Shown piece by piece: positions 1-51,361 of a DNA stretch of 64,000 nt (positions are counted from its first letter, which is position 1; every line of letters begins with the position of its first letter). The DNA lies in the NCBI GenBank assembly GCA_000611775.1, contig KK106983.1:561542-625541 (forward strand), in the 5' to 3' direction. A program made the translations under genes and the position numbers. The notes beneath the pieces are model-generated. The model saw nothing but the letters and a program-made list of their open reading frames with translations, had not been told where the DNA came from and ran no database searches. Origin of the DNA: Umbilicaria muhlenbergii (lineage: Eukaryota > Ascomycota > Lecanoromycetes > Umbilicariales > Umbilicariaceae).

Positions 1-567
1 CATGAAACATCTTGAGCTTAAGGTTAACAAAAGAAGTCTTCATGATGCTTAAAAATTAACATCACCCTTCTGATCTCATTCACATTATACAGGTGTCTCA
101 CTGTCATGATGTAAGTATCTTCAGAGTTGATAATCAGGGTTACACAAATGTATTTAAGTTGATGATACAGCTGTTCTGATATGTTGAGCCTTCACTATAC
201 CACTATAGGGTGAAATGCATAAAGGATAAAGTAGAAACTCAGAGTTTCTGCAGGATGATGATCAATCTCTTTTTTCATTAATGTGCAATGTGAATATCTG
301 TGAGTTGAGAGACACTTCAACTCTTCAAATCTCTTTCAATGACATTACAGCTTTCCTTGCCCGCATGATTTCAACAGATAGCATATACTAATGTAGCAGA
401 ACCTCAATCAAGATAATGTGTCATGATCAAAATTGTTGAAGAAGCACACACCCTTGATGTGTTCTTTTCATTCAATTCAATGAATGTGAGTTTGATTCAA
501 TGAACACATTTATCATTCATTGAACATGCTTACAAGTGTTGCAGAACAGTGATTCAGATACTTTTCA

Positions 568-877
568 TCATTCATCAATTTGTTATCATCAGCAGCACTG
601 CATTCTCTTATGACTCACTGCATCAACACTCTCCTTGCCCCTCACTACCCTCTTCATTGAACACTTTTTTTAATCTTCATGACATCATCTTCTGCTACTC
701 TCATCAACATTCTCATCATGACTCATTCATTAATCTGTTATCATCAGCAGTGCTGCATCACTTCACAACTCACTTCATCAACACTCTTCTTGCCCCTCAC
801 TATCCTCTTCATTGAACACTTTTTTTAATCTTCATGACATCACCTTCTGTTTCTCTCAGCAACACTCTCATCATGAT
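568..877. repeat. Tandem duplication, two units of 155 bp
   Basis: The sequence from 568 recurs at 723 with a constant offset of 155 bases. Shared words include the ATCATCAGCAG stretch (585/740) and the run AACACTTTTTTTAATC (660/815). The copies differ mostly by C/T changes, as expected if a tandem pair was mutated after duplication. No protein is inferred. Confidence 0.8.
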
Positions 878-1242
878 GATACATTGTAGCAATAGCTCAT
901 CATCTGGCAGTCACTTTAGAATTTACAGTGAAAGATGAAGTCCTCAAATGAGCAGGAGTGAGACATAGTGTTTATCAGTCAGATGCATGAAACTTCTTCA
1001 CAATCTTTCATTCAACCTTGAAAGCACTCAGAGCTGCTGAGTGAATTTAACAGATGAATTCAAGACCTCTTCTCCTTTACATCATTCATACTGTCAGTGA
1101 ACATAAAGGACTTTGTGATCAGAGTGCAACTGTTGAATGAGATAAAACCCCTTACTGTCATTTTACATCAGTGTGAGTGATGTTATACTGATCAGTTTGA
1201 CTTCATGTCACACAAGTTCATTAAATTCAACTTCCTGCTCAG

Positions 1243-4040
1243 GTGATGAAACCTCATTTTAAGCTTACTAGGTCACTTTGTTTGCATGTGCATGAATATT
1301 ATCATCAATTCACAATACTCAACACCCGTGAGAAGGATACAACATCAGAGTCATACAACATGAGTTTAAACCTCAGAGGACTTTTCATGAAGAGTGAGAT
1401 TTTAAATGACCTGCCTGATTTAAGCACGCTCTATGACGCAGTGAGAGCTGAAAAGCTGAAGTATGCACATGCAACTGAGCATGAAATCCTTCAAATGATA
1501 GAGGATTACTGAGGCAACTGAATAATCCCTCTTATGTCATCATATCAACTGCTACTCTATGATCTATATCACTTCCTGAGTGACGCTGAGAAGGAGTGCA
1601 TTCAGCATCAGATTTCATCAAATCTGAGGGTCAAATTGTCTGAGGTGCATGACCTGAATATTTACTGAGTGAGGAGTGATGACCTTTTTGAACCTTTCAA
1701 ACCAGTCTCAGCAGTCACATGAGGAGGCGTGACTGATTATGATTTTAAATTCAGAGCAGCTAGAGCTTTATATGATAAGTGAAAGAGAGAGCTGAACTCA
1801 GAACCTGATCTCATTGAACTCACTGAAGCATTTAAGAACATGACAGTGAGTGAAGAGGTTAAAGAGCTGACAGACAGAAGTGACAAAGAGAACAGCAGCA
1901 AGAAATCAGCTACTGAATCTCAAAGGAAGGATTCAGATGAGCTCAAGGATCAGAACATCACTGTGAAGAGAGTGAATACAATCAGTCAAGGTGAAACTAC
2001 TCAAAGTCAGGTCAATTCTGATATCATGCACACAGCTACCTTATCAAGATCAACCTCAATGAATGATTTAACTTCATCTGTCATTCAACCTCACCTGTTA
2101 ACCTCCGGTTACCAGTTTTTGCAAATAGCGGCTCATCAGAAAAGACAGTTCAAGCTCACATGTCAAAACTCACCTCATGACAGCTCACTCACTCAACACC
2201 CTCTGTTACATTTTGATTCACCTCACTCAGTGAGTGAGACATCAGATCATGCTGAGTTGATTATATCATCTCTGTCATGAGATCACCTGCCTCACTCAGC
2301 TCAGTTAATCAAGTTTAACAACTTAGTCAATACACCTCACCTGATGAGTCATTTCACGTCAAAAGAACTGTGATCATTACTCATACTCAATCAGCCCTCA
2401 TTAATCAAGGAATACCTTGCGTTGACCTCACTGACATTAAGGAAAGATGAGTTTAACTTCATTAAGCCTGTGTTACACATGACCTCATTGAGAATGAAAC
2501 TCAGTGCATTAAACTTTATCATCAACAATCACTCACCTGCTCAGACACATTTAAAGCCTGAAACTTGATCAAGAATCCTTTCATCACAACTCATAAGCCC
2601 TCATACACCTCATGATGTAACATCAGACATCATTCATCTCACAGCATCTCAGCTGACTGACATCACAAAGTGAGCTTCTACCTCAGAGCCTACCCGCACC
2701 TCAAGAGAAGCAAGGTTGAGGTCAGGTCTTCAGCTTAATTCAATGAAACTTAAGATGTTGAAGAAGGATGATCATCTCAATCCTGTGTCAACTGAGGTTC
2801 CTGAACTGAAGAGAGTGAAAACAATCATTAAAGAAAGCAATCAGAAAGATAAGATCAAGATCTTAAGCTCACCTCATGTTCTGAAGGTATACAAGGAGGG
2901 AGGATCAGTCAGAAGAAACATCATCATAAGTTATAAGAAAGCTCTGATTAATGCAGACTTTGCAGACTGATCAGTCTATTATCATGAGTTCAATTGAAGT
3001 TCATATGACATGAAAGACATAGACACAGCTCTGTCAGTGAATGTGAAGCTCATTAATCATCTGATGCAACAAGTGATGAAACAGCTCATTATCAATGATC
3101 AGGTGACTCAATACAAGGCAGACTTTAATGTAAATGAAGCTTCTAAGATCATACAATACAGTCTGAGCTCAGTCATCAAGCTCAAAGTTCAGTCTGATGA
3201 AGAAAACTGAGGGGCTGAATGATACAATCAGATCTGATGAGGCCAATATGAGTTCATCAGTGAGGCAGAAGCAAGGAAAGGGGATTTAATGATATTAAAG
3301 AAAGATGCAGAAAAGAAGGTAAAGAAGTGAAAAGCAAGTGAGTGAAGTTTGAGTGAGAGGTCATTCATTCAAGGAGACCTTAAATTTGATTACACAGTCA
3401 TCATCATGAGGTCTCTAAGGTCAGATAAGCATCTAGAACTCATACAACTCATGAAGTCTTCACTGCTAATTGAAAGACCTGCTCAACTGAAGACCTCATG
3501 ACTGATCATGTGAGAATCAGCATTACTGAGCTTGATGAGAGTAGATCAACCCTCAGAGATGAAGCTGAAGCTGTTGAGCATGAGCGTCAGGTCAGAAGGA
3601 CAATCTTTAAGTAATACACTTAAAAATCATGATGTGACAGAGAAGAAGGCAATCAGGAAGGTAATGAGTGAAGAGGTGACACAGATGAAAAACAAGTTGA
3701 AAAAGATCATGCATCAGATGCTCATGATTAATGAAGCACTTCAGCAGGCTTATGATGACAACTGAGACCTCCTCAACATCATTATTTTTTTAAAGCAAAT
3801 TCAGGCAGACCTGATTGACTTCATCAATGAGTTCATCATCAACCTCAGTGCTCATCTTGAGGATGAAAGCAAGTCTAGGTTCAACAAGGTGTGATTTATG
3901 AACATGTGAAAAAAAGCTCTTGACAGGCATGATTACTCAGGTTTCATCATTAAAGATGACTGAGAAGAGGTTAGAAAACTGAATGTCTTGATGAAAAAGA
4001 ATGAAGGGGATAGTCCTTTATCAGAAGAATATAAGAAATA
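1243..4040 (+). pseudogene. Unidentified degenerate coding-like stretch (mobile-element remnant?)
   Basis: Several open stretches follow each other on the + strand (1,243-1,512; 1,840-2,280, 146 codons; 2,716-2,970; 3,010-3,210; 3,532-3,765). They are separated by TGA stops that often sit where Arg or Trp would fit. The conceptual products are Ser/Lys/Glu-rich and helix-prone, with a coiled-coil look around 3,590-3,900. I do not recognise a family. Its position just upstream of a gypsy element suggests a gag-like or other element-encoded protein, but this is inference. Base composition and mutation pattern match the rest of the block. Confidence 0.35.
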
Positions 4041-4169
4041 AGAAGCAGAAGCAAGTCATCTGAGAGTTGACTTTATTGAGGAAGAGAGATGTTGATTGAA
4101 GCTTTTAAATGTAGAATAAGTAGCCTAGTATAGATCAATGATGAGCAGGATGACTGACTGAGGGAAATA
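4041..4169. other. AT-rich spacer before the gypsy element
   Basis: Short mutated stretch between the unidentified coding-like remnant and the presumed left LTR. No features are seen. Confidence 0.3.
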
Positions 4170-4306
4170 TTAATTATGTATATGTGATGAATGTGCGCTC
4201 ATGACAACAACAAGTTGCTAAATGAGTGCTCAGATTTAGAATATAAGCGCTAAAACTGTATCTCTTTAAGTGAAAATATCTGAGCGGGCTGCCACTTTGT
4301 GAATGA
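4170..4306 (+). repeat. Candidate left LTR remnant of the gypsy element
   Basis: It shares with 9,430-9,541 a GTGCTC word, a TAAGCGC/GAGCGCATAA-like segment, and the terminal TGAGCGGGCTG(C/T)CA..TTGTG(A/G)ATG. It is much shorter than the right-hand sequence, so it would be truncated or partly replaced. No primer-binding site could be recognised in the mutated sequence that follows. Confidence 0.4.
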
Positions 4307-4399
4307 ATGAATAAACAATACCTCACTGAGCAGATAAAAATAACATACATGAAAATAAAAGTTGAAGATGACTCTGTTAAACACATAAGACCTTGAATG

Positions 4400-7300
4400 A
4401 ATCTGACATCTTGAACAGTTTATTTGAATATTATTAAACTGCTAGAACATTTGACCTGAATTTACAGAAACTCAGATTGAAAACATATTATCACTGATGA
4501 ATTTTATAAGCTTTATTAAGAATTCAAAGACTTCTCATTCTTCTGAGTTGATTTTCAGTGATATGTTACTGAACTGAATGAGTTTCTTAACTCATACTGA
4601 ATAGGAGAACTTCTGAACAAGGTGAACAACATTATTCAATGATAATTAAACACTGATGATGACAGACTTAAAGATTTTTATGAACTCATCAAGTGCTGTC
4701 AGTGAATTGATCAGATCTTATGACTGCTTAATGCAAAGAAGATCAGCAAATCTTAATTGAATTAAACATTCTTCTTCACAAGTTAAACTCATACAAGGAC
4801 TGAACATTTTATTGAGACCTTAAAATCAACTACTCAAATGATCACTGAGTCAGTCCCCTGAACACTGAACTGAACATCACACTCAGACGCTGTCAAAGAA
4901 CAACAGATGAAGAAAGAATGATGTTTTAAATGCAATAAACAGAGACACCTTGCCTTAAACTGTTTAAACAAGAACAAAAAGAAAGAGACTTCAACATTAA
5001 GATGTGTGTAATGAATCACATTCAACTTTGATTCTGATTTTGAATCAGATTCAGGAAAAGGCGTTCTCTTATTAAAGTCATGATAAAGATCAATGATAAT
5101 TCTCTTGTGATATTAATGTTAATGATTAATGAAGATATTCTGTTCACCTGAACATTATTCAAAGTGAATTGCAAGCTCACTCTGAATGAGGTTAAGCTAC
5201 AAGTCAAGACTCTACTTGATACTGAGTCAACTGAATATGCATTCATTAATGTTAATTTGACAAAGACTCTGATTGAATGATCTGAAATTGAGGCAGTATT
5301 ATTGCCAAAGCCCTGAACTTTACATGATTTTCAGAAGAAGACAGTGAAATGAGTTATATACATAATTTATTCAATTATGAAGGTCTGTAATCATTCTCAG
5401 TGACTCACCCTCATGATGATTGTAGACATGAAAGATCTCAGCATTATATTAAAACTCTTCTGAATGAATCACATCTGAATTCTAATCAACCCTGTGAACT
5501 GAGTAGTGATTTTCTCACTGAATAAAGAACTGAACACTGAATGAATGAAATCAAATGAAAGAACTGAACCAAAGAACTGAACACTGAATGAATAAACAAA
5601 ACTGAACAAATGAACTGAACTGAAGAACTGAACACTGAATGAATAAACAAATTGAATGATTGAACCTGAATCACTGAAAACCTATCAGATCCTGAAGAAA
5701 TTCATTATAAAAGTAGATTCTGAATCAGCCTCTGCATTAAAAAGTAATAACCCCTCACATGCAATTAATATCAAGATGATTAACACAGCACTGTTCACAT
5801 CAAATATGAAGAAAAGTAATGAGATCTTTGTTATCTTTATTCAACAGATTAAGAAAGTATTGAATCTTGAATTAAAATTAAGTGAATCAGATATCAAAGT
5901 AATTTTCTTTTTTAAATATCATGACCTGATTGATGTCTTTTTCAAAAAAGCTGCAAATAAACTCCCTCTACATTAACTTTATGATCACAAGATTGTCTTA
6001 AAGAGTGAGTAAAAGCTAAAATACACACTTCTTTATAATATGTCACATGAAGAACTGGTAGTGATGAAGAACTACATAAAAGATAACTTGCAAAAGAGTT
6101 TCATTGAAGTCAATTAATCATCAGTAGCCTCACTGATTCTGTTCATATGAAAGAAAGATGAGTCTTTATGACTGTGTGTTGACTACTGAAAGCTGAATTT
6201 GATTATGAAGAAAGACTGATACTCATTGTCTTTAATTGAGGAAATCTTGACTCAGATTTCAAAGACAAAATACTTCATCAAGATTAATATACAACAGACA
6301 TTTCATCACATATGAATGAATCCTGAATCTGAAGACCTGACAATCTTTCAAACAAGGCATGAGTTTTACAAATATAAGATCTTGCCTTTCAGACTCATTA
6401 ACAGATCAATCACCTTTCAGTATTTTATTAATGATGTATTATTCAATTTATTAAACACCTGTTGTACAACATATTTAAATGATATCTTGATCTATTCAGA
6501 GTCTCTGTCTGAACATTAAACTCATGTTTGAACTGTTCTAGAATGACTGAGAAAGGTGAATTTGCAAGCTGAAATCAAGAAGTGTGAATTTCACAAGATT
6601 AAAACTTAATACTTAAAACTGATCATAGAACGTCATGACATCTAAGTAAACTTAAAAAAGATCACAGTTATAAAGACTTGAAAAGTGCTCATTAATTTAA
6701 AACAGCTGCAGGTATTCTTAAGTTTTTGTAACTTTTACTGATGATTCATAGAGAGATATTCTAAAATCACAAAACCTTTAATCAGACTGACAGGCAAGAA
6801 CATATCCTTTAATATGTAAATTGAATAATGTCTTCAAGTGTTTAATGAACTAAAAAACTGACTGATTAACACATTAATATTACAATGCTTCAACTGAACT
6901 TGAATATGTTATTTTAAATGTGACTCATCTGATCTGATATCCGCAGAAGTACTATCTCAGAAAGATGATTAAAAATTAATGCATTCAATGATATTTTTCT
7001 TTAAGAAACTCATATCAGCTGAATGTAATTATGAGATCTATGACAAAGAATTGTTGATCATCATTTAAAGTTTAAAGGAATGACGTGCTGAATTAACAGA
7101 AACAGAGGATTTGATTTAAATCTTAACAGATCATAAAGCCCTGAAGTACTTTATAATGATCAAGAAATTAACTCACAGACAAGTCAGATGAGTTGAATTT
7201 TTTTCACAATTCAACTTTATGATCACCTACTGAACAGGCAAGGAAAATGAAAAGGTGAATGCACTCATTAAACACTCAAGTGATCAACTAAAGAAGAATG

Positions 7301-8670
7301 AGAATGATGAATAATTATGATATTAATCTTAAATCATGCTATCAAGCTGCTGCTTAAACTCATGCATTATTATTAAATAAAAGAAAAGAGCTCCTCATCT
7401 TTTAAAATCAGCTGAATGAACTTTGAATAAATCAGCTGAACAGACCTTGAATAAAACTTTAAATGAGTTGATTACCTGTTATGTGAAAGCAGATGATTTC
7501 TGTCAGGAAATTCTAAGCTTATTATGAATCAAGGCAAGACATTCAATAAAGATTTTCCTTAATGATTGCACTGAGGACACAGGCTGACTTCTTTATTAAA
7601 AATATGTATGAATCTCAGGCATTGATAATGATCTGAATCAGAACAAATTATGATGATGATTAATTCAAGAAGCTCATGAACAGCTGACAGTAAAACACAT
7701 TGAATATTAAAAAACTTTGAAACTACTTGCATAATTCTACTATTAACTCTGAATGAACTGAATGATTAATTATTTTGTTTAAAATTATCACATCTGCTGC
7801 TGAACAAAGAACATGAATGAGCAGTATCAAGAAGCCCTGAAATCACTTTCAATTTCAAGTCATTCATGACAAGATATTTCACTCAACTTGATTATCAAGT
7901 TACTTGAAAGTGAAGAATTTAACACAATCTTGATAATCATTTGTAGATTAATCAAGGAGAGACATTATATTCCTTATTCAACAGATAAGAATGAGGAAAC
8001 ATTAATTAAATATATTATTAAACTCTTGCTTCAAAATGTATGAAGATTTCATGAATTATCACAGATAATTACATCAGACTGAGGATCACAATTTGTAGTA
8101 TTACTCTGAAAATATTTATGTGAATGACTTTAAATCAGATTGAAACCTTCAACTGCTTTTCATTCAGAGACAGACAGGCAGTTTGAAAATGCAAATATGA
8201 ATATTAAACACTACCTCAGAGTGTTTGTGAATTATCAGCAAGATGACTGAGCTAAATGATTATTAATGACTGAGTTTACAGCCAACAATGCAGATTCTGA
8301 CTTCATTAAAGTTTCATTATTTTTTACAAATAAAGAATATCACTCCTGAATGAGCTTTAATCTTAAACATTCAATCACTTCACCTCTGCTGACAAGAGAA
8401 TAAATTCTGAAAGAAAAAGCTGATTTCATAATAAATCATATGAAGGTTTTACATGTGATGTTACAAGAGAACATGACTGCAACACAACTTCAGCAAGAAG
8501 ATTTCACAAACAAAACTTAAATATTAACCTCAGTATATAAAGTGAGAGACCTGATATGATTGTCAATGAAAAATATTCAAACAACTCACTCATTTAAAAA
8601 GCTGAATCACAAGAATGAAGGACCTTTTCAAATCAAGAAGAAAGTTTTCATCAGCAATTTAGCAAGTTAA
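4400..8670 (+). pseudogene. Mutated gag-pol of the Ty3/gypsy element
   Basis: Gag zinc knuckle CX2CX4HX4C at 4,922-4,963. Protease-like LLDTEST at 5,212-5,250. RT from about 6,040: DESL-stop-LCVDY-stop-KLN near 6,157, then LPFRLINRSITFQ, and YLND where YxDD is expected (near 6,470). RNase H about 6,890-7,300 (CDSSD, then NYEIYDKELL). Integrase about 7,660-8,420 (ITSD-stop-GSQF at 8,068, then PSTAFHSETDRQ). C-terminal KLNHKNEGPF at 8,599. From protease to the C-terminus every landmark lies in the same frame over about 3.4 kb, with no net indel, while the zinc knuckle is in the -1-related frame. The damage is therefore point mutation, mainly CGA or TGG to TGA. The protein cannot be made. Confidence 0.85.
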
Positions 8671-9541
8671 CTTTGAGTTAATTTTTAGCACTTTGAGCGC
8701 TCTGAGCTTCTGATCTCATGTCTCAGCTAACAGCCGCTCTTAGCATTCTCTGAGCACTTTGAGCTCAACCTTAAATCTTGAGCAGAACATCAAAATTTTG
8801 TGATAAAAAAACAATTATTAAAACAATTGTTTAAACAAGTACACACACAGTGTTATAATAACAGTAAAACTTATAATAATCTTCATATCTGCTGTTGTTG
8901 TTAAGTTATATTTAATTCAAGTTTTTAATAGCGAAAAATCTTTCAAAAAAAGTCATATACTTTGAATAACTATTGCGCTTTTATACTTCTGATATAACTT
9001 TCAGTTTATAAGTTGTAGAAGAAGCTATTAAACAGTTTTATAATTTAAAGTTTTTTTATAACTGTTGTTGTTAAAAAGTTACATTGATTTCAAACTTTCA
9101 GTGACGAAAATTACAACATTAATAAACAGACTTTTAATGACTTTTTGAATAACTCAACAACAACAACACATAAAAAGAAAGTTTGTATAAGAAAACTCTT
9201 AAACAGCTTATTCTCTACAACTTATAAACTGAAAGTTATATTATAAGTATAAAAGCGCAATAGTTATTCAATATGCTAATATATTTATAATTAGTTAAAA
9301 GTTTTTTAATTCATAACTATTGCAAATTAAAACTTATGAAGAAATCTTTAGTTTGTAAAGTGTACAGAATAAAGAGATTTAAAACTTTTCAATAAAAAGT
9401 TTCTTATTATTCATGAATGTATAATAGTTATTTAAAGTGTAAGATTTGTATGAGCTCATTTACTGCTCAGAGAGTGCTCTGAGCGCATAAAGTACTATTA
9501 ACTAAAACCTTATTTTTGAGCGGGCTGTCAAGTTGTGGATG
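8671..9541 (+). repeat. Candidate right LTR with a large fold-back structure
   Basis: It begins directly after the pol reading frame ends. The outer parts look inverted: AGCACTTTGAGCGCTCTGAGC near 8,690 against the reverse complement of the 9,455-9,490 region. Inside, 8,961-9,040 and 9,191-9,271 form a long near-perfect inverted repeat. Both arms keep CG dinucleotides, which is rare in this block. It may instead be a separate fold-back element inserted into the LTR. Confidence 0.5.
8961..9271. repeat. Inverted repeat, arms of about 80 bp
   Basis: Arm 1 (8,961-9,040) contains GAATAACTATTGCGCTTTTA and then ACTTTCAGTTTATAAGTTGT. The reverse complement of arm 2 (9,191-9,271) contains the same words in the same order. 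The loop is about 150 bases and carries a further GTTGTTGTT / AACAACAAC pair. The structure could fold into a long hairpin as RNA or single-stranded DNA. Confidence 0.85.
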
Positions 9542-11100
9542 TCAACTCAAGCATATAAACTTGAATTGCTTGAGTCAATGAAAATATACTCTGTATTTCA
9601 CATCTTTTTACTACAACTCACTGTGAATGATTCTTTACTTGAATAAATTGAGTCATCATCATCACCTGTAATAACTGAACAGGTTGAACTGAAATGAGAA
9701 GTTAAACAAATTAATGACAGCTGTTGATGAAAAAACAGGCTACAGTACTGAGTGACATGAAAAAATTACTCACTTGACAAGACCTGATATAATGTTGATG
9801 AATTCAAACACTCACCTGAACTGAAAGAGGTGTTTCATAAAAGCTACTCAAATAAGCTGACTGAGTCACTGAATACATCAATGACAAAGCAGAAAAGTAG
9901 ATGATCAGCTCATGAAACTCATTAAACAGAGGAAAGAGTAGTGTCAGATTTACATCTGAATGTTAAACTGAACTGATTGATCTGAATGATCTGAATGATG
10001 TATCAAACTAAATAACTGAATGAGTTAGCGCTGAATGACTGAACAGGTTAGCAATGATTTAGATTAATGAATTTAATGTGCACATAAAGATTTTAATCTT
10101 CATGCTTTTTCTTCTTCTTGCTTTTTAGATTAAAATTCTTCTCTGTAGCTAAATGTCAGCTGTTAAAATATATGCATTAATTCATAATCTGCATAATTCT
10201 GATAAGTATAATTCAGCATACATCACACTCTGCTCAACTTGCATGTAAACAGTCTTTAAAATACTTTAAATCTTAAATGAGTTATCTGTGTTTTTTATGT
10301 TCTTGAACAGTTCATTATTTATTTCTCTCTTGATAATCTCAGCTGCTTCAGCAGTGTCTCAGTTAAAATTAATGATTGCTGTCATCATGATCTTGATCAT
10401 ATAAACATCAGTGATTATATCTTAATACCTCTTCTTCTTAAGATTTAATGTTGTCATGTTAAATCATCTTGATCAGTTTTTTACTTCTTTCAACTTCTCT
10501 TCTCATCACACTGAGTCTTGATGATCATTGTTGACCATGATGATTTAAGAGTATGAGGGGTGAGCAGTCAAGCATAATTTTTATATGACAGAGATGATTC
10601 TTTCATGATTATGTTATTGCTTAACAGTAGTGCTCCCCAGGCTTATAATTTAATAAATATGCTAAATAGATAAATAGATAAAAGGCATTTAAGCATATGA
10701 TAAATGTCATATGACACTTTTGTGAGTAAGTGATGCAAACTCTGCATGCTATGTGACCTCATCAGTCATCACTAATGATAACTTATTAAGTTGTTTTAAC
10801 TTTACACTTGAGCCCTAGATTGAGCCCTAGATGCATATTTATACATGAAGTGAAAACTGTCAACCCTCAGCTGAGAAACTTCTCAATCAGTCAACAATTA
10901 AAACAGATATTTAAAATTAATTAACACAGTAATAACAGAAGTCATGAATCTCTTTTATTTATTTTTCAACAGCTTTAATATGTCACTTTCATTATTATAA
11001 TATTCAGAGAGGCCTCAGCTAAGATTGTCATTTATAATGATACTTAAAACTTCACAGCAGCTCATTAAGAGATTTGCTTTAAAAATTTCTCTTTATACAT
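9542..11100. other. AT-rich degenerate sequence, no feature identified
   Basis: It has the same mutated composition as the gypsy element, without a readable protein domain. It contains the direct duplication TGAGCCCTAGA (near 10,810-10,830). No gene, tRNA or clear terminal repeat was seen. Confidence 0.5.
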
Positions 11101-11788
11101 GACAGTCTTCAACTGAGGCCTCACTCAACATCACAACAGAGAAAGTAATGTATTTATTTTCTGAAGTAGAATGTTGTGAAATGTTGTAAAAATGTTCATG
11201 TTTTTATCATCTTTACATCAGTCTGTCCTTAAAATCAGTCTTGAATTTCAGGTGTTTAAGAGGATTTACAGCTGATGAATATCACTTGTTCTGTTCATAC
11301 ACCTGTTAATTATTTTTCCTTTATTCATGATTTATGCTCAGTACTCTTACATGCCAAGCTGAAAGATGATGATTCACTCATGTTCACAACATATCAACTC
11401 ATGCTTCTCAAGATATCTGCTTGTGACTGTAAAAAGTGGCAGTCATCTGCATCAGAGATTCAACTTTCACTCATACTGAAGTATGATAGATTAAGTATCT
11501 CAGGAACACCTTTGAAGTGTTTACCTGCTTATTTAAAGTCACAGACTCAAGTGAAGCTCCTTAAGTGATTGTGTTTGAGGAGATGTCATCAAGAGGTCTT
11601 CAGTCATCAAAAGATGATGTTTTACTGTATTCATCTCTGTGAGGAGTGAGGGTGATTACAGATGCATTCAAGATGAGGTCATTCAGACCTGATGTTGTGC
11701 AGGAATTGTCTTCACAAGGAATAGCAGTGGATACGGATGCATTTGAGATGAGGTCATCAAGATATGATGTGGTGCATGATTCATCGTT
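11101..11788 (+). repeat. Repeat copy A (heavily mutated)
   Basis: It aligns in direct orientation to 19,209-19,890 over about 690 bp, starting at GACAGTCTTCA in both copies. Differences are overwhelmingly C-to-T or G-to-A in this copy relative to copy B. It contains a 97-codon open stretch (11,275-11,568) and, toward the end, units of the 75-bp tandem repeat. I cannot assign an element family; it may be a fragment of a larger transposon. Confidence 0.85.
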
Positions 11789-11841
11789 ATCCAATGGTTC
11801 CCTTTTCACTAAGGGGTAAAGACGTCCGCTTCCAAGGGCTA

Positions 11842-12356
11842 TAAGTGAAACGGCTGACATATTGTTTCAGATAGAAAATACTCCTTCTGCTGCTCAAACA
11901 ACCTGGCGCTGAAATTGAAGAATTTGTCCGGTGCGAGACGCAGCACTGCGGCGCCGGCTTCATGGACGAGTGTTGAGGAGGGGTGCCAGGGTTGGATTTG
12001 TTGGCGGAAGATTAAGCGGANNNNNNNNNNNNNNNNNNNNNNNNNNNNNNNNNNNNNNNNNNNNNNNNNNNNNNNNNNNNNNNNNNNNNNNNNNNNNNNN
12101 NNNNNNNNNNNNNNNNNNNGGGGGGGTGTATAGGGTTGGTGAGAAGGAGGGGAGCGGAGCGGGCGTGAGGGGCGAAAGGGGGGCATACGGGGCGGACGTA
12201 GTTGAGGTCTAGAGAGGGAGGGTTAGTGGTACGTGGTGAGTGAGAGGGGAGACGAGGGAGAGGAAGGGGGGGGGGGTTATTACAGAGCGTGTGAATTGCT
12301 TTTGAGAAGACGCCGAGGGAGAAGGCTTGGCCGTCGAATTTGGGGGCCAGAGCCAT
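11842..12356 (-). pseudogene. DsbA-like thioredoxin-fold protein, 3' truncated and interrupted by a gap
   Basis: Start at 12,356. Exon 1 (12,284-12,356) encodes MALAPKFDGQAFSLG and ends IHTL; then a 75-nt intron (12,209-12,283); then YLNYVRPVCPPF, which fits the conserved Tyr-Cys-Pro-Phe active-site region of fungal DsbA-like/thioredoxin_4 proteins. The 99-base gap interrupts it. Beyond the gap the frame reads IFRQQIQPWHPSSTLVHEAG, a signature of the same family, and continues to KEYF. After that the frame runs only a few codons to a stop at 11,842, next to repeat copy A. The C-terminal half is missing. Either a repeat insertion truncated the gene or the assembly joins unrelated contigs here. 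Confidence 0.65.
12021..12119. other. Assembly gap, 99 N
   Basis: Unknown bases. The gap lies within the DsbA-like remnant and close to the change from AT-rich repeat to GC-balanced sequence, so the true gap length and the join itself are uncertain. Confidence 1.
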
Positions 12357-14053: not shown

Positions 14054-17000
14054 ATGGCTGACCCCCAACGTTCCCCTATCCCCGGGGCATCAAGTCCATA
14101 TCGGGACCTGGCTCATTTCGAGGAACCGCTGATTTCGCTATCAGTAACGCCGTGTGGGTCACCACCAGAGGTCTGCTCTCTTGGAGAACTCGATGCTTTT
14201 ATTGCAACTAACTTAGATCGCAGGGCCCTAACTGGCGCCGAGATGAACTTCCACAATACGAACAACTACATCCTCACCAGGCAGTGACACGATCGCGGCG
14301 GAATTCAACGAAGAAATCAGACTATGAGATTGCGTTAGAGCTAGCCAGGGAGGATAGCCTGATGGATATTGAGGATCCGGGATCTCAACAGTGGGTATAT
14401 CTTGACTGGTGAAGATCCTCTGTTGACTCCTGTTTGTGCAAAGTCAGCTTTTCCAAGAACAGCTTCTTGTGGCATCTGGAAGGTCGAATTTCCAGCCCAT
14501 TCACAACAGTTTCCCGCGTTTAGTAGGGGAGAATGAGTCAACTACCGATACCAGCGGTCCAAGCAATCCCGATCGAAGCCATCCGTACCACGTCCAACGA
14601 CAAAGATCTCCCAACCCCTTTAGTCGAAACCGTGACGGAGGATCAGGAAGAGCCCCGAAGGAACTCTGCCTCGACTGTCAGAAGCTCGGCGAGGGCCGCT
14701 CTCTCTGCAACGTTTGCAATCTTACACTGTGCGACGGCTGCTGGAATCGTCAAATACCTCATCGTCTAGGCACCCGAGGCCCTGACAACGTGCCGCATGA
14801 GAAAACTAATCATGAAGTCGCACAAAAGATCCAAGCCGTGCTGGAGCCAAATATTACTAACGAGGAGCGGAAGGATCTCCACAAAAAAGACGAGAACACA
14901 ACTTGGTTCGGAGTAGCAAAAGATGAGATGGATGAAATCATTTTTCAAGATTGCGGGAAATACGCTTCCCTAATGGCAGAGTGCTCGTCTGGTCGGAAAA
15001 GTCGTCAGTATCCTGGATTAGTCTCTTTCGTAGGTCAAATAGGTAAGCCTTCATACTTCTATTCATGCCCCTCAGTTAACACTGTAACAGGCGCTGGAAA
15101 GAGTACTTTAATCAAGATGCTCATTGACCTTAGGAGCAATGCAAGGCGGGAAGCAGTCCCTGTCGTTGGCTCTGTCAATCATACTGTTCCAACCTCTGGG
15201 GATGTCCACCTCTACGTCGATCCTTGCACCCACTTTACGGACTACCCGATCTTGTACGCCGATTGCGAAGGTCTAGAGGGCGGAGAACAGGAACCAATGG
15301 CACTCCAGGCAAGATGGGTTGAGAACTCTAGTAAGCACGGCTAGCCGGGTAAGAGGACGCCGTTATTTTAGAGGAGATTGCGGAAGAAGCATCACAGCTC
15401 TCAAAGGGAAATCACCTGGGCAACTACAGCTGACAAGAGGACTCGTCAGTTTGTGGTTAAGAATTTATACCCTCGTCTGCTCTACACATTCTCTGACGTC
15501 GTTGTCTTTGTGCTCAAAAATCCGAGGTATTGAGTCTGCACATCAGTTTGGAGGATCCCCAGGTGCTGACAAGCGCGGTAGAGTCATTGAAAACGCTGTG
15601 GAGCAACTCATTATCTGGGCTTCTGCAGCGGTGGAGAAATCTACGAATCAGCCCGTCCTGCCCCACCTAATCATCGCACTCAACGCCACCGAGAACGCGA
15701 TAGATCCAGATGAGTGGGACGTCGATATTGCCACCAAGTATCTGATGAAATCGATCACAGAAGCGATTTTTACCACCCCGAGATTCATGGATTATGTCCA
15801 AAAGGGCAAGCAGCGGAAGCAGGTCATTCACAACGCCCTTGATCTGCTATGTTCTTACTATTCGACTGTCCGTGTGGTTCGAATTCCAACGAAAGGGCGT
15901 CCCCAACTCATCAGTGATCAATTGGGCAAGCTTTATCAAGAGATCTCCAAAGACTGCACGGAGTCACGGGGTAGTAAACGAAGAGTGAGGATGCTGTTAG
16001 ACTCAGATGAGCTGCAACCATACCTTCAATACGCATTCGATCACTTCTCGAATCACTTAGAAACACCCTTCGATTTTGTCAAAGCGAGTTTCTTGAATAA
16101 CCCAATACCGCGAGACTTCGGTGGTAACATATTGAAGACGGCCATAAATGTCATGCTTTGGGAGAATAGGCTTGATGGATTTAGTATCTTCAAGGAGTTG
16201 AGTCCCTTAGTTGCCTCCTGCATCATGTTGGATTCTGCTCGACATAAAACAAAGGGTGAGGCTGAGGAGCCCCTAGGTATTGCATTGACTGACTTTGATA
16301 GGGACCGCCGAGAGCATCTTTCGAGAGCATTATATTTTCCATTGCGATGACGCAATAGAAGATTTCTGTGATCGCCACTGGCCGTGTGAGTACAGTAACA
16401 GTGCTGGCCGGTGTGTCAACGTCAGGAGTGGACATAGCGCCAAAGGTCATCAGCTGGAAAGCGGTCGTGCCTTCGGCTCTGGAGCATATGTGTCGAGATT
16501 CTCAGCTGAGATATTTGCTAACAAGTGGAAAAATATGATCCACCACGATCTTGAGCTGCTTCTCCAGAGGCTCCGCGAAGCGAGCAGCGATGATGAATAT
16601 CAGGAGCAAACGGCAGCGAACATCCACAGAACCGCAATCCTGGATCCCTTTTATAGACATGTTGGGTTTTCGGAGAGATATGTCAGTCATTCCACATGTT
16701 TTGCATGCTTGATAGCATCTCCACAACATGCACTGCCTTGCGGTCATGTGCTCTGCACACAGTGCTTGCAAGCCTTTGCGACCTCAAGGAAAAAATGGGT
16801 CGTCGGGATAGACACATGTCCACTGTTGCATAGACGCCCTCAGATCTGGACCAAGCCATGGCAGATTGCCTTCAAGCCGGTTGCGGCGGGAGTCCGCATC
16901 TTGACACTTGATGGGTAAGGTAACCCGCATGTCGCAAATATTTTCCTGGCAGGCGTTTGCTCATACACATATGCGTCACAGCGGTGGGATACGGGGGATT

Positions 17001-19090
17001 GTCGAGCTCGAGATACTGAGGCTTATACAAAGGGCTCTCGGCGCAAAGATTCCCATCCAAGACTTTTTCGACCTTATTGTGGGCACGAGGTAACTTTCCC
17101 AGTCAACGTGCTCGACTGTTATTTCTCCCATGCACAGCGTTGATTTAAAGCTACTGTGTTAATGACTGACTGATGACGACAGCACGGGAGGAATAATTGC
17201 TCTTGGACTTGGTGTTGAAGCTTGGCCCGTCGATGAGTGCATCGGCAAATTCACTTCGCTTTGTGAACAAGCTTTTACACACCGGAAGGGTCATAGAATC
17301 CCGGGGCTCGCCCAGATGATTGTAGCCCACCATGGCAGCATTTACGAAACCAGGCCCCTTCAGGATGCTCTGATGAGTACATTTACGGATGGCTATTTGT
17401 TCGGTGGCCTACGCTACGACGACACACCGCAAACCAAGGTCGCTGTGACTGCCGCATCGGCGGCCGGATTACAGCCTGTTGTCCTTTCGAACTACAATCG
17501 GTTGGGTGGAGATGAAGAGCAGCGTCCGTCTCCCCGTGAAACCGCGTAGCCGAGCTTCGTGACTGACGTAGTGCAGGAGACTATCTCTTCCAGCGGCCCG
17601 AAGAGCCTCAACATGAATTCAAGATATGGGAAGCGTGAGTTATCATCGTGGCGACCCCCGGTATACTATTACTTATCCCCTTCTATAGTGCTCGAGCCAC
17701 CTCTGCGGCACCAACGTATTACAAGCATTTTTCGCACGAGCCCTCCGGGCAAGTCTTCATCGACGGCGGTATATGGCACAACAATCCCGTTGTCATTGCC
17801 GATTCCGAGCGGAAGTTAATGTGGCCGGACGTGGCTGATTTACCCCCGGACATTCTACTTTCTATCGGTTCTGGATGTTGCGGCAAATTAAAAGGCCCAA
17901 GACGTCCGTTGAGAACAGCCCGCAAAACGGGTATCGGTTCTCATGTTAAGGCCTTTTACCGGATTGCGGTAGATCATATTGAGAGCAGTCTTGATTCAGA
18001 GAAGGCCTGGCGAGATTACCTTGCTCTGGTTTCTCCAGAAAAAGACCAGCGCTGGCGTTATAGACGCTTGAACGTAAAGCTCGATAATGCACCACCAAAG
18101 CTGGACGAGGTGGACAGCATGTCAGACCTACAAGCCATGGCAAGACATCAATGGAGAGTGGACGATGACCATATCACATCTATTGCACAGCAGCTTGTGG
18201 CTTCAAGCTTCTTCTTCGAAAAGGACAGGCTTGAGATCTCAGAAGATGAATCCATTGTTTGCTCCGGTATTTTCTGAACCGCACCTCCAAATCCATTTGC
18301 TGACATACTGTTAGGGACTATACAATGTCGGTTTGCTCAAGGATCGCAAAACATTCGAGAACTTGGAGCGTACCTTCAACGATGCCAAGTCGGCAATCAC
18401 TCGTCGTACTTCGTAATTCAGGAGAGATACAGGGAACGTCTTGCACAGCAAGTCCCCATTCCTCAGGACATCATTGACAACATGACACATTATGGGAGCT
18501 TCGCGATGAAGCTGAATATCACGACTTCGGCCCAGCTGTTCCCCACAGATGTGCTACTATGCCTGGCTCGCAATGGGAGCTGGTTCTCTATCAGTGGCTT
18601 TCCAAGGCTTCTCCAAGATGAAGATAGCCCGAGAGGTGCGACATATTTGTTACCGTGCAGTGTTCAGTGCCAAGCAGCTAACTCCCGAACAGTCATGCGC
18701 AAACTAGGAGGTATGTCGAATAGGTGGCGGACTCCGTCACAGATCCATCGTCGTGGACACTGGCCCGGTCCACAATCGTCTGACCTCCGTGATCGAGACG
18801 ACGACACTATTTCCAATTACTCGAACCCAGATTACGTCGCCGGCAACTCGAATCCAGCTGCGCTCGACATGCTTCCTGCGCAATTCCAACAAACGACCCT
18901 GGAACTCGACGCGTCAAGTCGCGTCGAACTTGACGTCGGTCGTGAGAATTTACGTTACGAGCTGCCTGACACCTCAATAGGAATCGCTGAGCTTCCGGCT
19001 CGCACATGGCCGGATCACTTGACTCAACACGCCGAACCTGATGACCATTCCTATGATCACGATGAAGATTCAGGGGAAAGCTGGAACTAA
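14054..19090 (+). CDS. Zinc finger - GTPase-like - RING - patatin phospholipase, about 1,474 aa
   Basis: Twelve exons: 14054-14170, 14224-14394, 14448-15042, 15091-15317, 15372-15526, 15582-16255, 16302-16914, 16982-17089, 17183-17535, 17577-17634, 17689-18266, 18315-19090. All phases join and the sum is 4,425 nt. Residues 1-165 look disordered. Cys pairs at 170/173, 183/186 and 191/194 with nearby His form a B-box-like finger. P-loop GAGKST at 295-300 and DCEG at 352-355 resemble GBP/dynamin-type GTPases. A RING-like finger spans 779-819 (Cys 779, 782, 793, His 795, Cys 798, 801, 819). The patatin domain has DGGGIRG at 850, GTSTG with nucleophile Ser887, and DGG with Asp1049, so the dyad is complete and lipid acyl hydrolysis is expected. 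The splice after exon 4 uses a weak GTTGAG donor. A further 57-nt intron in the last exon (18,636-18,692) is possible. A role in non-self or stress response is inference. Confidence 0.8.
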
Positions 19091-19208: not shown

Positions 19209-19890
19209 GACAGTCTTCATCTGAGGAGGCCCCTCTCAATACTCCAGCAGTGAGAGTAATATTTTCAAAATCCTCACGTGAACATTGTAGAGATTCGTGC
19301 TTCTACCATCTCTACATCAACTCGTCCTCAAAACCAGTCTTGAATTTTAAGCGGTCGAGCGGACCCTCAGCTGATGAATATCACTTGTTCTGTCCACACG
19401 CCTGCTGGCTGTTTTCCCTCTATTCATGACTTATGCTCAGTACTCTTACGTGCCAAGCTGAAAGATGATGGTCCACTCACGTCCACAACTTATTGATTCA
19501 TGCTTCACAGGAGATCAGCTTGTGGCTGTAAGGAGTGGCGGCTATCTGCGCTAAAGATTCAACTTTCAATCACACTGAAGTATGATGGATTGACCATCTC
19601 ATGGACACCTTTGAAGCGTTTGCCTGCTTGCTTAAAGCCACAAACTCAGGTGAAGCTCCTTAGGTGATTGTGTTTGAGAAGGTGTCGTCAAGAGGTCTTC
19701 AGTCATTAAGAGATGATGTTTACAGTATTCATGTTTGTGAGGAGTGGGGGCGGTTACTGATGCACTCAAGATGGGGTCGTCCAGACCTGGTGTTGTGCAG
19801 GAATCGTCTTCGCGAGGAATGGCGGTGGATACGGATGCATTTGAGACGGGGTCGTCAAGATGTGGTGTGGTGCAGGATTCATCGTCGCGA
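19209..19890 (+). repeat. Repeat copy B (lightly mutated)
   Basis: Direct-orientation partner of copy A (11,101-11,788), keeping CG and CC where A has TG/CA and TC. It starts 119 bp after the stop codon of the patatin gene, so that gene's 3' UTR probably enters the repeat. No intact transposase or polymerase domain is visible, so it is probably a fragment. Confidence 0.85.
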
Positions 19891-19901
19891 GGAGTGGCGG
19901 C
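19739..19901. repeat. 75-bp tandem repeat (25 codons), two units plus a partial third
   Basis: Units start at 19,739, 19,814 and 19,889, each opening with GAGGA(G/A)TGG. The period of 75 keeps the frame on both strands. The + frame reads EEWGRLL / EEWRWIR / EEWRLGK. The - frame gives repeats of the type SCTTPGLDDPILSASV. The same units occur in mutated form at the end of copy A (about 11,641-11,788). A coding origin inside a transposon is plausible, but I see no complete gene. Confidence 0.8.
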
Positions 19902-47266: not shown

Positions 47267-49108
47267 TGACAAGGAGCCGCATGGCTTCGCTCGTCCAACT
47301 TTCTATGCGCCTTTGCTCCAACGTCTATTTCACCTACACTTGGACCCAGAATTACCTCCTACTACTTCTCGACCACCAAAATCTTGCCAACAGAGTTCTT
47401 CCACCACTTCTAGGGACCACCACGGACCCTTTTCATATTAATTCGGTTTCACATGATACCATTTTCTCTCGCGTTTCCCGTTCTAGATTCACCCATATTG
47501 CACATATCCTCAGTGTATTCGAATGTACAGCTTACCTGCTTTGCGTCTCGTCGTTGACTTCGCTACTCAGTGCGATCAAGCGGGCGTTGGAGATACCACT
47601 GAACTTGCAGATCTTTTTTCTTTCAATATCCTTTTGCTGTACCTGACGACTGTTCATAATACCCAGGGGGAGGGGAGTTGAGCCTAATGTGATGGTGGTC
47701 GTGGGTACGGGGCTCGCGGGGAATAATCTTTGCAGGCAGGGTACATGGGATTGCAATTTATAGACTGGGGGGGAGGTTAGTACATGAAATGCAGATACCT
47801 TGCTGAGGCTACGAGCGCGTCCTGTGGTTGAGTGTGATATCACACGTGCACTGGTTGTGTGTGTAGAACTCACGGAAATAGCTGGTGGTTACCAAGGAGG
47901 GCCTCATCATCCAACTCTACTGTGTTTATGCAGAGACATCGAAGAACTTGTCAGCAGTATTCACTCACCCCTTCACGTCCCATAAATCGATTATTTACCA
48001 TTAGTATATCCCAAACACTATCAAGACCCGCTCCACAATCCTCACCACTCCGCACTGCGCCCCCCCTCCCCGCGCCCTCACAACCCAACACAGACCACAC
48101 CCCCCACCAGGTGGCTTGGCAAAAAAACCGAGGGTGCAGGCGCCAGTCTGGCGTACGGCCACCATCAATAGCTGTTCTGCGTAAAATGGGGATCTAGGCC
48201 GCCCTTAGGAACGCAATCCATGTCGGACTGCAAATTTCCAACGGTTTGTTAAAATGTACGGAACTCATAGATAGCCTTGAGGACTGAGTGAGGTCGGTGC
48301 TTTGATTGAGTGGGGGATCCCTCAAGAGGGTTGCAGCTTTTGTTTATTGTGAGACCTCACTCGACGAGTAGGCGCTGACGTGTGGATGAACATAAGTAAA
48401 CAGTCAGGCGTAGGGTCGGAATGAGTGGCAGTTGCGACAACAGGGGGTACGCCTACGCAGGGTAACGAAGCACCGACCGCAGGCCTCAAAGATATGAATC
48501 TCATAAAACCCTTGGAAGTGGTTTGAGCTGTGTAATACCTCACTGATTACGGGTCTTTCCTGATCTTGCGCTTTGGTGTTGATTCGATGCTGGGGAAGAA
48601 AGGCTGCCTGGATGCATTTTACTTGGAGCTGCCCACATATTTCGACCCGACGACGCCTGGGGGTCACCTCGACCATTTGACGGAAAAATTTGATGAGGAT
48701 CGGTTTGATTTACGTAGGGGTTTAGATACTTCATTTTCGCTTTTGTGGTATGGAGTGGGGTGCCAGATAAAGACTGCCAATTATTTTTGTCCTTGTGCCT
48801 GCTGGGGTGTTCCCCCACTACTCAGGGCTTTTTGTCCGATACCCTTACCTACCCTTCGCTGGCCCTGCCCGCGCCGGACTCGCGAGCCAATTACCGATTT
48901 CGATTCCCTTCGCGACCAACTCCATCATCAACATCACTTTTACAGATAGGTCGTCTGCTCGATAGCTTCGTATCAGGAGATTGTTTTGTGGTTGGGTCAC
49001 ATATAAGTCGCTGGTGAGCACGCGGTTGGGCTTCGGTGAGTTCTTTTTGATACAGGTGCAGGTTGAGATGAGGTGGATGCTGAGTATATTAGTGGTTGAA
49101 GTGATGCA
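47267..49108. other. Intergenic region, about 1.8 kb, nothing recognised
   Basis: 3' flank of the MSB1-like gene and 5' flank of the F-box-like gene. Short C-rich segments near 48,050-48,110. No gene or repeat of note. Confidence 0.5.
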
Positions 49109-50068
49109 ATGGTCACGATGAGCTCGTCCACTCGTACAACCAGGTCGAAGAAGCGCGAAACCACAGCCTCCAGCATGAGCTCATCCACCCGTGCCGTCAG
49201 ATCTAAGAAGTCGGAAGTCGCGTCCTCCAGGCCAAGCTCATTTGCCACAACAATCAGATCTGCGAAGCCGAAGGTCACAGCCTCCAGCATGAGCTCATCC
49301 ACGCCTTCGGTCGAATCCTCGAAGCTAAAACCCACAGCCTCCAGCACGAGTCCGTCCACACGTACCGTCCGATGGACCAAGCCAGAACCGGCGCCCTCCT
49401 CCGAGACTTTCCCCTTCCTCAAACTCCCCGTCGAGCTCCGCAATCGCATTTACCAACTCGTGCTCATCTTCCCCGTGCCGATCAAAGTCGATCGACACAT
49501 CCGCCAGCCTATTTTCAGAAGCGCGACCAGAAGCGGCAAGAACATACGAAAAAGGAACGACACTGGGGATGTAGAACGCGTGTTCGGCATCACCGCGCTC
49601 TCAATCGCTTCCACATGCCGGCAGATCTACCTCGAGTGTGTTTCGATCTACTACCGGGAAAACATCTTCGCCCCTTTCACAATGAGCAGTTTGCACCAGT
49701 TTCTCGCCGCCATCGGACCGACAAACCAAGACCTAATCGCCACGATATATATCTCGTCGTATACTGACTGGCATAGGGTCGCGACGTTCAGGAGTCTGGC
49801 GGGGCTGGAGGGGTTGAAGGTGATCAGGCAATGTCCCTGGTACTACTCTTTCTCCGCTTCCCCCCTGAAAACCTACACCATTCCCGCGGTGTCGTTGCAA
49901 GATTTTATGTTTACCGGCACAAATAAGATGGAGCGGCCGGACTGTTTCATTCTTTGTTGTCGAGGTCGGACGGTGGCGGATAGAGAGAAATGTGAGGCGA
50001 AGGATGGAAGCTTCGATTGTTGGGTCAATGACACTCCGGCAGATAAGCAATGTGCGAGGCGAGAGTAA
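49109..50068 (+). CDS. F-box-like (LPxELRxxIY) protein with five 19-residue repeats, 319 aa
   Basis: Single exon. Residues 5-99 are five tandem 19-residue units that each open with Ser-rich SSSTR-like sequence and end in TASSM/T-like sequence. Then comes FLKLPVELRNRIYQLVL, the F-box-like motif common in large families of filamentous ascomycetes, and later STCRQIYLECVSIYYREN, its usual companion block. Function is unknown; F-box-like proteins may bind Skp1 in ubiquitin ligases, but this is not shown for this group. The neighbouring gene at 50,560 shares the LPxELRxxIY and TCRQIYLE blocks and KSTTRSGRSVR-like linker, so the two are paralogues. Confidence 0.8.
   Translation: MVTMSSSTRTTRSKKRETTASSMSSSTRAVRSKKSEVASSRPSSFATTIRSAKPKVTASSMSSSTPSVESSKLKPTASSTSPSTRTVRWTKPEPAPSSETFPFLKLPVELRNRIYQLVLIFPVPIKVDRHIRQPIFRSATRSGKNIRKRNDTGDVERVFGITALSIASTCRQIYLECVSIYYRENIFAPFTMSSLHQFLAAIGPTNQDLIATIYISSYTDWHRVATFRSLAGLEGLKVIRQCPWYYSFSASPLKTYTIPAVSLQDFMFTGTNKMERPDCFILCCRGRTVADREKCEAKDGSFDCWVNDTPADKQCARRE
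49121..49405 (+). repeat. 57-bp coding tandem repeat, five units
   Basis: Five consecutive units of 57 bp (19 codons) encode the Ser/Thr/Lys-rich N-terminus of the F-box-like protein. Recurrent words are ATGAGCTCATCCAC and ACAGCCTCCAGC. Units have diverged, so this is not a very recent expansion. Confidence 0.85.
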
Positions 50069-50559
50069 GCTTAGGCATGGATGCGGCATGGGGGATTGAA
50101 GCGTATTGATCTGTTCGAAGGTGACCTGCTAGAAATGAAAAGTGGCAAGCTGTTAGTCTTCGTGGTCTTCACTCATGTAGCCCTCGTCTCCCGCGTACTT
50201 CGCTTAAGTCTGCTTCCTTCAATGACAGGCCCATCCAAAAAAGCGGCAGGCTCCAGCTGGGGCACCTCTCGGTATAACAACAGCGAGGTTGATATTTCTA
50301 AATTGTTGAAGTGAATACTGTAGGCACCCATGGCTTCATTCATCACTACATTAATCAGTCTTCGGAATTTGTCCTGATTCTTGAGTGGTTGGGGGGACCT
50401 CCAGCTGAGGACTGCCCCTTGTTTCGTCCACACGCATGATGACTTTGATCTTGATCTGATATCCACAACACCACTAGCCATCAACACAACGTAGACGCTG
50501 AGCTACGCACCACAATTTTGACAGCCAGTCGCAACAATCACAAGCCCGTCGAAGAGTCC
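50069..50559. other. Intergenic region between the two F-box-like paralogues
   Basis: About 490 bp; no gene seen. Holds the promoter of the second paralogue. Confidence 0.5.
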
Positions 50560-51361
50560 ATCATGGCGCGAACGAAGACTTCTTCAAGTAGCCAATCATC
50601 GTAAGTTACAAACTCACTATCAGCAGTGAGCAGAGTCCAGATTGATGTGTTGTAGTACGCTTCCAGCCATGACTTTTCATCCGTTTATGCGCCTTCCGGC
50701 AGAGCTGCGCGTTCGCATCTATGACATGGTCGTAGTGTTGGACAAGCCAATTTTGATGAAAAAGACGGACCGCCGCGTATGGCAATCGATGGGGAAGAGT
50801 ACCACTCGGAGCGGCAGGAGTGTACGACCGAAAGAGGAAGAGAACGAGAGACGCCGAAGCGCCGGACACACTGCGCTGGCCGTTGTCCATACTTGCCGCC
50901 AAATCTATCTCGAGGCCGCCCCACGCTACTATACCCTCAACACATTCTCCGTGGGCGCACGGCCGCGGAAACCAGCACCGATTCCGGCATTCTCTGCGGA
51001 TGTTGGACCCAAAATCAAAGATATGATAGCGAAGGTTGAAGTGGTTAACATTCCTAGATGGGAAGGCGTGCATCTTGAGGATCTCAAGGGCTGCAAGAGC
51101 TTGACCATCGTTCTGCCGATATGGACGGAGGTACCCTGCTTTAGGCCGGGATCTTTTATGGAACAGTGGACCAAATCGACCAAGAAGCTATGTAAGACTC
51201 TGGAGAAGCTGGAAAGGGTGAAAATTACGAGGGCTGGCCAAAACGGGAAAGTCGATCAACATTTGACCGGAACAGAAGAAGAGGACAAAGCCGTGGAGGC
51301 AGAACTCAACCTGGTGCTTAAGTACAGAAGCAAGTCCACGGGTGAAATATTGAAACTCTGA
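50560..51361 (+). CDS. F-box-like (LPxELRxxIY) protein, 248 aa
   Basis: Exons 50560-50600 and 50656-51361 (sum 747 nt). The start MARTKTSSSSQSS in exon 1 joins to TLPAMTFHPFMRLPAELRVR, followed by VHTCRQIYLEAAPRYYTLN. The C-terminus is Lys/Glu-rich (TGTEEEDKAVEAELN). It lacks the 19-residue repeats of its upstream paralogue. Cytosolic or nuclear; target unknown. Probably a local duplicate of the gene at 49,109, strongly diverged. Confidence 0.8.

Follow-up and report, generated by a model that had tools for sequence, protein, structure and literature searches.

A fungal family joining zinc fingers, a GBP/atlastin-like GTPase and a patatin domain, with a probably disrupted copy in Umbilicaria muhlenbergii

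A gene that appears to join zinc fingers, a GTPase-like domain and a patatin phospholipase in one chain raises the question of whether such a protein is made, to which family it belongs and what it would do. The gene lies on the forward strand at positions 14054-19090 of the window, the 64,000-nt stretch of Umbilicaria muhlenbergii DNA analyzed here (assembly GCA_000611775.1, contig KK106983.1, 561,542-625,541 of the forward strand), and the parts of the gene described below are on this strand. Patatin effectors and GBP-like GTPases are each known in immunity. Judged from sequence and fold comparisons, the locus is a member of a widespread, apparently unstudied fungal family in which zinc fingers precede a GBP/atlastin-like GTPase whose middle domain is helical, followed by a RING-like finger and a patatin domain. 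The overall reading proposed here is tentative, with a probability of roughly 0.45: the locus would be one of two old paralogues, in this fungus, from a family in which nucleotide-driven assembly gates the patatin, and the copy in the window would no longer make the full protein.

In a protein search, 510 proteins reached E <= 1e-3; the best 120 were examined, and those among them that come with an organism name are presumably all Pezizomycotina. These uncharacterized proteins are mostly labeled hypothetical, PNPLA domain-containing or FabD/lysophospholipase-like, the last being a label that, in the excerpts of the literature available, is also applied to patatins of NOD-like receptors (NLRs). 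They are 40-63% identical to the window protein over the aligned part. A regular-expression scan of the 120 proteins, in which some matches were missed and a few were stray, found the motifs in the same order and comparably spaced, and the window gene itself has the family order of zinc finger, P-loop GTPase, Cys/His knuckle, RING-like finger and patatin. The expectation of the sequence-only reading that other fungi have comparable fusions is supported by these matches. The closest named relative among the matches listed is P0002 from Candelina mexicana (Candelariomycetes), whose gene model lacks the RING motif, and a member is also present in Aspergillus (P0009). Some members carry additional domains, such as PF07653, which we take to be an SH3 family, in P0026, and C-terminal ankyrin repeats and SPRY in P0095 from the lichen fungus Icmadophila; the same ankyrin and SPRY Pfam families are found in P0119 from the lichen fungus Cladonia. 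These ankyrin and SPRY parts resemble the sensor parts of some fungal NLRs. PF28431, which is precomputed for many homologues, was absent from Pfam scans of three proteins bearing it.

Conservation was counted in 107 aligned homologues, 13 of the 120 being left out. The GTPase domain (14889-15963, interrupted by introns and with approximate ends) was delimited with AlphaFold 2 (AF2) models of two relatives, P0084 and P0138, in which a GBP/atlastin G-domain fold was found by Foldseek and VIA-align 2; the fold of this kind that had been anticipated is present in these models of relatives, not of the window protein itself. In the G1 or Walker A motif GQIGAGKST (15033-15107, split by the intron 15043-15090), the Lys and Ser are kept in 105 of the 107 homologues, while the G2 Thr is kept in 104 and the Asp of the G3 motif DCEG (15261-15272) in all 107. 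At the place of G4, Asn is present in 107/107, and Glu or Asp follows two residues on in 100. This N-A-x-E/D motif differs from the R-D type of GBPs. By fold, atlastin, RNF112 and Sey1p score nearly as high as the GBPs, and weak Dynamin_N matches were seen in two of six homologues scanned (E 0.13 and 0.24). Unlike the GB1/RHD3-type GTPases GBP, atlastin and RNF112, the fungal GTPase is fused to a phospholipase, and its RING-like finger follows the GTPase, whereas the RING of RNF112 precedes it. A bacterial origin of the GTPase part was also considered and rejected, a contig scan of limited sensitivity with a 12-member alignment having given 26 pattern matches, none of them confirmed.

The zinc-binding parts differ in their conservation. 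The B-box-like N-terminal finger (CxxC..CxxC..CxxC..H..H, 14667-14801) keeps its first Cys in 87 and its last tested His in 92 of the 107 homologues, the remainder being mostly gaps. Each ligand of the second knuckle, C-x8-C-x6-H-x4-H (16385-16450), is kept in 105-106 homologues, and seven ligands of the RING-like finger (16697-16831; zf-RING_2 at E 0.016, below cut-off) in 102-106. The column of the eighth zinc ligand holds 60 His, 32 Glu, 5 Asp and 5 Cys. The variability of this aligned position weakens the suggestion that the RING adds ubiquitin control.

A Pfam search had been proposed for the translated model, and in it the patatin matched above the cut-off (PF01734, E 3.5e-20, residues 838-1048 of the 1461-residue model), with RING, B-box and P-loop matches below it. 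The domain spans exons 7-11 (16901-17800) and has the DGGGxR, GxSxG and DG[GA] motifs and the fold of patatin-like phospholipases. The nucleophile Ser of GTSTG, whose codon is split by the intron 17090-17182 (17088-17183), is present in 96 of the 107 homologues, with gaps in four, and the catalytic Asp of DGG (17762-17764) in all of them. The nearest solved structures by sequence are CapV (E 3.4e-15) and then iPLA2-beta (3.5e-12), and a closeness to both is supported by the sequence and fold matches. PADLOC models of phospholipase effectors from the cyclic oligonucleotide-based antiphage signaling system (CBASS) reach E 5e-36 to 2e-41 with three homologues, while the control, a pair of DUF3336 patatins from this genome, gave E 8e-4 for one and no match for the other. 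Two further patatin exons of this genome reach E 5e-22 and 3e-17 with the same models, so that a CapV-like patatin is no peculiarity of the family but is shared among several of the fungus's proteins. The CBASS effectors CapV and CapE share the patatin fold and the Ser/Asp dyad with the fungal proteins, but the fungal patatin sits in a large eukaryotic fusion.

Whether the window copy makes this protein depends on a short segment. In the 12-exon model derived from sequence alone, all phases join to give 1461 residues without a stop, including GQIGAGKST, DCEG, the Cys/His set, DGGGIRG, GTSTG and DGG. The joining and every named motif hold, and the openness hinges on the 54 nt at 15318-15371 being an intron. 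If this segment is kept, two in-frame TAG codons (15342-15344 and 15369-15371) fall where the compared relatives are open. It aligns in frame with relatives that are coding there, and coding is contiguous at this site in six of them (the paralogue L021, P0001, P0002, P0121, P0197 and P0240). A YTNAY branch motif was sought near its 3' end and was not found, whereas such a motif is present in 11/11 other introns of the gene and in 9/9 modeled introns of the paralogue. Without the segment the linker encoded here has 22 residues and with it 40; in homologues it has 23-69, with a median of 38 (measurable in 125 of 240 proteins), and 22 is below all of these. Because the two stops fall shortly after the G3 motif, the full protein would be lost from this copy, which, judged by its sequence, is probably a pseudogene or null allele of recent origin; a sequencing error may also be the source of the stops. 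The description of an open gene with all catalytic residues is contradicted for this copy, since translation probably does not extend to the parts past 15342. An annotation program may well create an intron that conceals the two stops, which makes this locus a trap for gene prediction. A 357-residue frame at 15277-16350, in another reading frame, passes through both the suspect segment and the intron after it without a stop, probably by chance. Repeat-induced mutation of the whole gene was rejected, given ordinary indices, a TA/AT of 0.61 and a GC content of 50%.

Near the 3' end, the stretch 18630-18700, flagged earlier as uncertain in its splicing, holds an ordinary intron of 57 nt (18636-18692) with a CTAAC branch motif. 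It is absent from the 12-exon model, but an intron is present at the same place in the paralogue and the sequence of P0002 fits it. With 18636-18692 spliced out and 15318-15371 skipped, the gene region has 13 exons; with 15318-15371 as coding sequence it has 12, and two in-frame stops.

The paralogue, L021, lies at C3:487143-491780, about 84 kb upstream of the window gene, and was modeled from exon 3 on as 1292 residues, unbroken to the stop, with nine introns. In a tree of 79 sequences, the window copy and the paralogue fall in separate clades, and the node uniting these clades has low support (0.52). Because each clade holds fragments from other sequenced sources, the tree suggests that the duplication predates this species and that these are two old paralogues. 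In addition, three further loci (L022, L023 and L024, at about positions 3800-5100) are AT-rich, decayed relics that retain pieces of RING and patatin, and L022 also matches the helical domain. L023 and L024 share 90% identity across 3.6 kb; a related gene thus sits in a repeated segment and was first multiplied, then decayed.

In the mechanism proposed for the family, either the zinc fingers or the C-terminal region would sense a trigger, and the zinc fingers and the variable C-terminus may supply location, sensing or ubiquitin input. Nucleotide binding would lead the GTPase heads to pair or assemble, and this assembly would bring the patatin domains together and activate them, as is thought for CapV and PLP-1. 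The activated patatin would then cut membrane phospholipids, and the response would be cell death or a lipid signal. CapV has been solved as an apo dimer and as a ligand-bound filament, according to the titles of its PDB entries. The patatin NLR PLP-1 is also a fungal patatin joined to a nucleotide-switch domain; in the available part of its description, cell death needs both the patatin and the nucleotide-binding motif, and PLP-1 binds itself (PMC12881547). It consists, in the same part, of an N-terminal patatin, NB-ARC and tetratricopeptide repeats (PMC12881547), whereas here a GBP-like GTPase precedes the patatin. Excerpts of fungal NLR surveys also show the patatin nearly always paired with NB-ARC (PMC12258605; PMC4986451). 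No NACHT or NB-ARC was found among the Pfam matches of the window protein up to E 5, the nucleotide domain being GBP-like in the models of relatives. From the parts of the sources available, Zymoseptoria Zt109795 and Trichoderma plp1 could not be linked to this family.

Several observations weigh against the reading proposed here, and some of them would favor other explanations. As for the state of the gene in the window, it deviates at 8 of 245 highly conserved columns, among them T285I in the P-loop, compared with 3-20 in 31 homologues, and the rest of the model is free of stops, which argues against long decay. This lack of general decay would be seen after a recent loss, and in a functioning gene that had gained an intron as well. 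That 15318-15371 turned into an intron in this species, through intronization of a variable loop, and that the full protein is made is nevertheless unlikely: the segment starts with GT, ends with AG, has a length that is a multiple of three and holds both stops, but its donor, GTTGAG, is weak, and the missing branch motif, the coding state of the site in six relatives and a linker shorter than in any measured protein all speak against it. Far less probable still is an erroneous joining of two genes, one for the patatin half and one for the GTPase half. Most of the 120 entries listed from a search for shorter homologous proteins (532 matches) lack a patatin annotation; however, this search could return only proteins of about 250-800 residues, and several of these entries resemble single exons or cut gene models. 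Exon 7 (16302-16914) contains the end of the helical domain, the second knuckle, the RING-like finger and the first patatin motif, and because this RING and patatin motif stand in a single unbroken frame, in an order repeated by the full-length homologues, the halves are one gene, as the 12-exon model had assumed.

For the role of the family, defence or allorecognition leads in our analysis because of the type of effector and the ankyrin/SPRY variants, with membrane housekeeping nearly as likely. In the latter case, an alternative of clearly less than even weight, the GTPase would recruit or shape membranes, for example at the endoplasmic reticulum or lipid droplets, and the patatin would trim or turn over lipids. 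The family is widely spread, membrane-remodeling GTPases score close to GBPs, and the fold matches of the patatin to the housekeeping-type iPLA2-beta and patatin-17 are at least equal to that to CapV; the CBASS effector models, however, match the family far better than the DUF3336 patatins of the same genome, and no transmembrane-like hydropathy was seen, the best 19-residue mean being 1.59 and lying inside the patatin core. The ankyrin and SPRY additions in two members also speak against housekeeping. The arginine-finger P-loop motif of GBPs is GxxRxGKS. In the window protein the P-loop reads GQIGAGKS, and the position is Gly in 104 of the 107 homologues; the arginine finger of RNF112 is Arg195 in the available part of its report (PMC12012479). 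With a P-loop lacking the arginine finger of GBP, atlastin and RNF112, rapid dimer-stimulated hydrolysis is not expected, which counts against both housekeeping remodeling and the gating proposed here. The Pfam GBP model, presumably PF02263, gave no match for the window protein up to E 5 or for six homologues up to E 1, and a profile search of the GTPase part against PDB sequences gave only chance-level P-loop matches and SMG-9 (E 0.054); the GTPase kinship therefore rests on fold. Seven of the 107 homologues, including P0042 and P0015, have Gly at the nucleophile position, which suggests enzymatically dead members. No defence-gene cluster was found among the 20 of 34 long open reading frames (ORFs) scanned with Pfam, a scan that genes with short exons escape, and the ordinary nature of these neighbors would suit housekeeping. 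In the full-text literature searched, with subscription journals mostly outside it, no published account of a GTPase-patatin fusion or of a characterized member was found, nor were activity, expression, interaction or population data on any family member, or functional evidence for the suggested sensor/effector that would destroy membrane lipids once the GTPase is triggered. A more specific version of the defence role is doubtful: that these form a whole class of single-chain immune or allorecognition proteins of filamentous ascomycetes, in which the direct switch for a CapV-like phospholipase is a GBP/atlastin-like GTPase instead of an NLR ATPase or a cyclic-nucleotide signal, and the enzyme kills the affected cell or signals from it. 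The window would then show the loss of one paralogue out of two, as a defence gene that is costly and prone to turnover would be expected to undergo.

The surroundings of the gene contain ORFs with matches to MFS, EF-hand, Msb1/Mug8, DUF7730/2EXR, HpcH/HpaI aldolase, Vta1, PDIA6-like and alanyl-tRNA synthetase families or with no match, and a defence gene cluster around the locus was rejected. Two adjacent ORFs with DUF7730, one of which also has 2EXR, lie at 49100-51358, and the first DUF7730 ORF carries a 57-bp tandem repeat of 4.5 copies near its start. Positions 1-12000 form an AT-rich block with 31-38% GC, compared with 49-58% elsewhere in the window, and this block ends near a run of 99 N (12021-12119). 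Just downstream of the gene, a 75-bp tandem repeat is present in 2.2 copies (19739-19901). No Rfam match was found in the window at the gathering threshold.

The interest of this locus lies in the family and not in the window copy. If the GTPase gates the lipase, the family would offer a third switch for the same kind of killer enzyme, beside NLR oligomerization and cyclic-nucleotide signals. As the family is encoded in many genomes, this can be tested in laboratory fungi.
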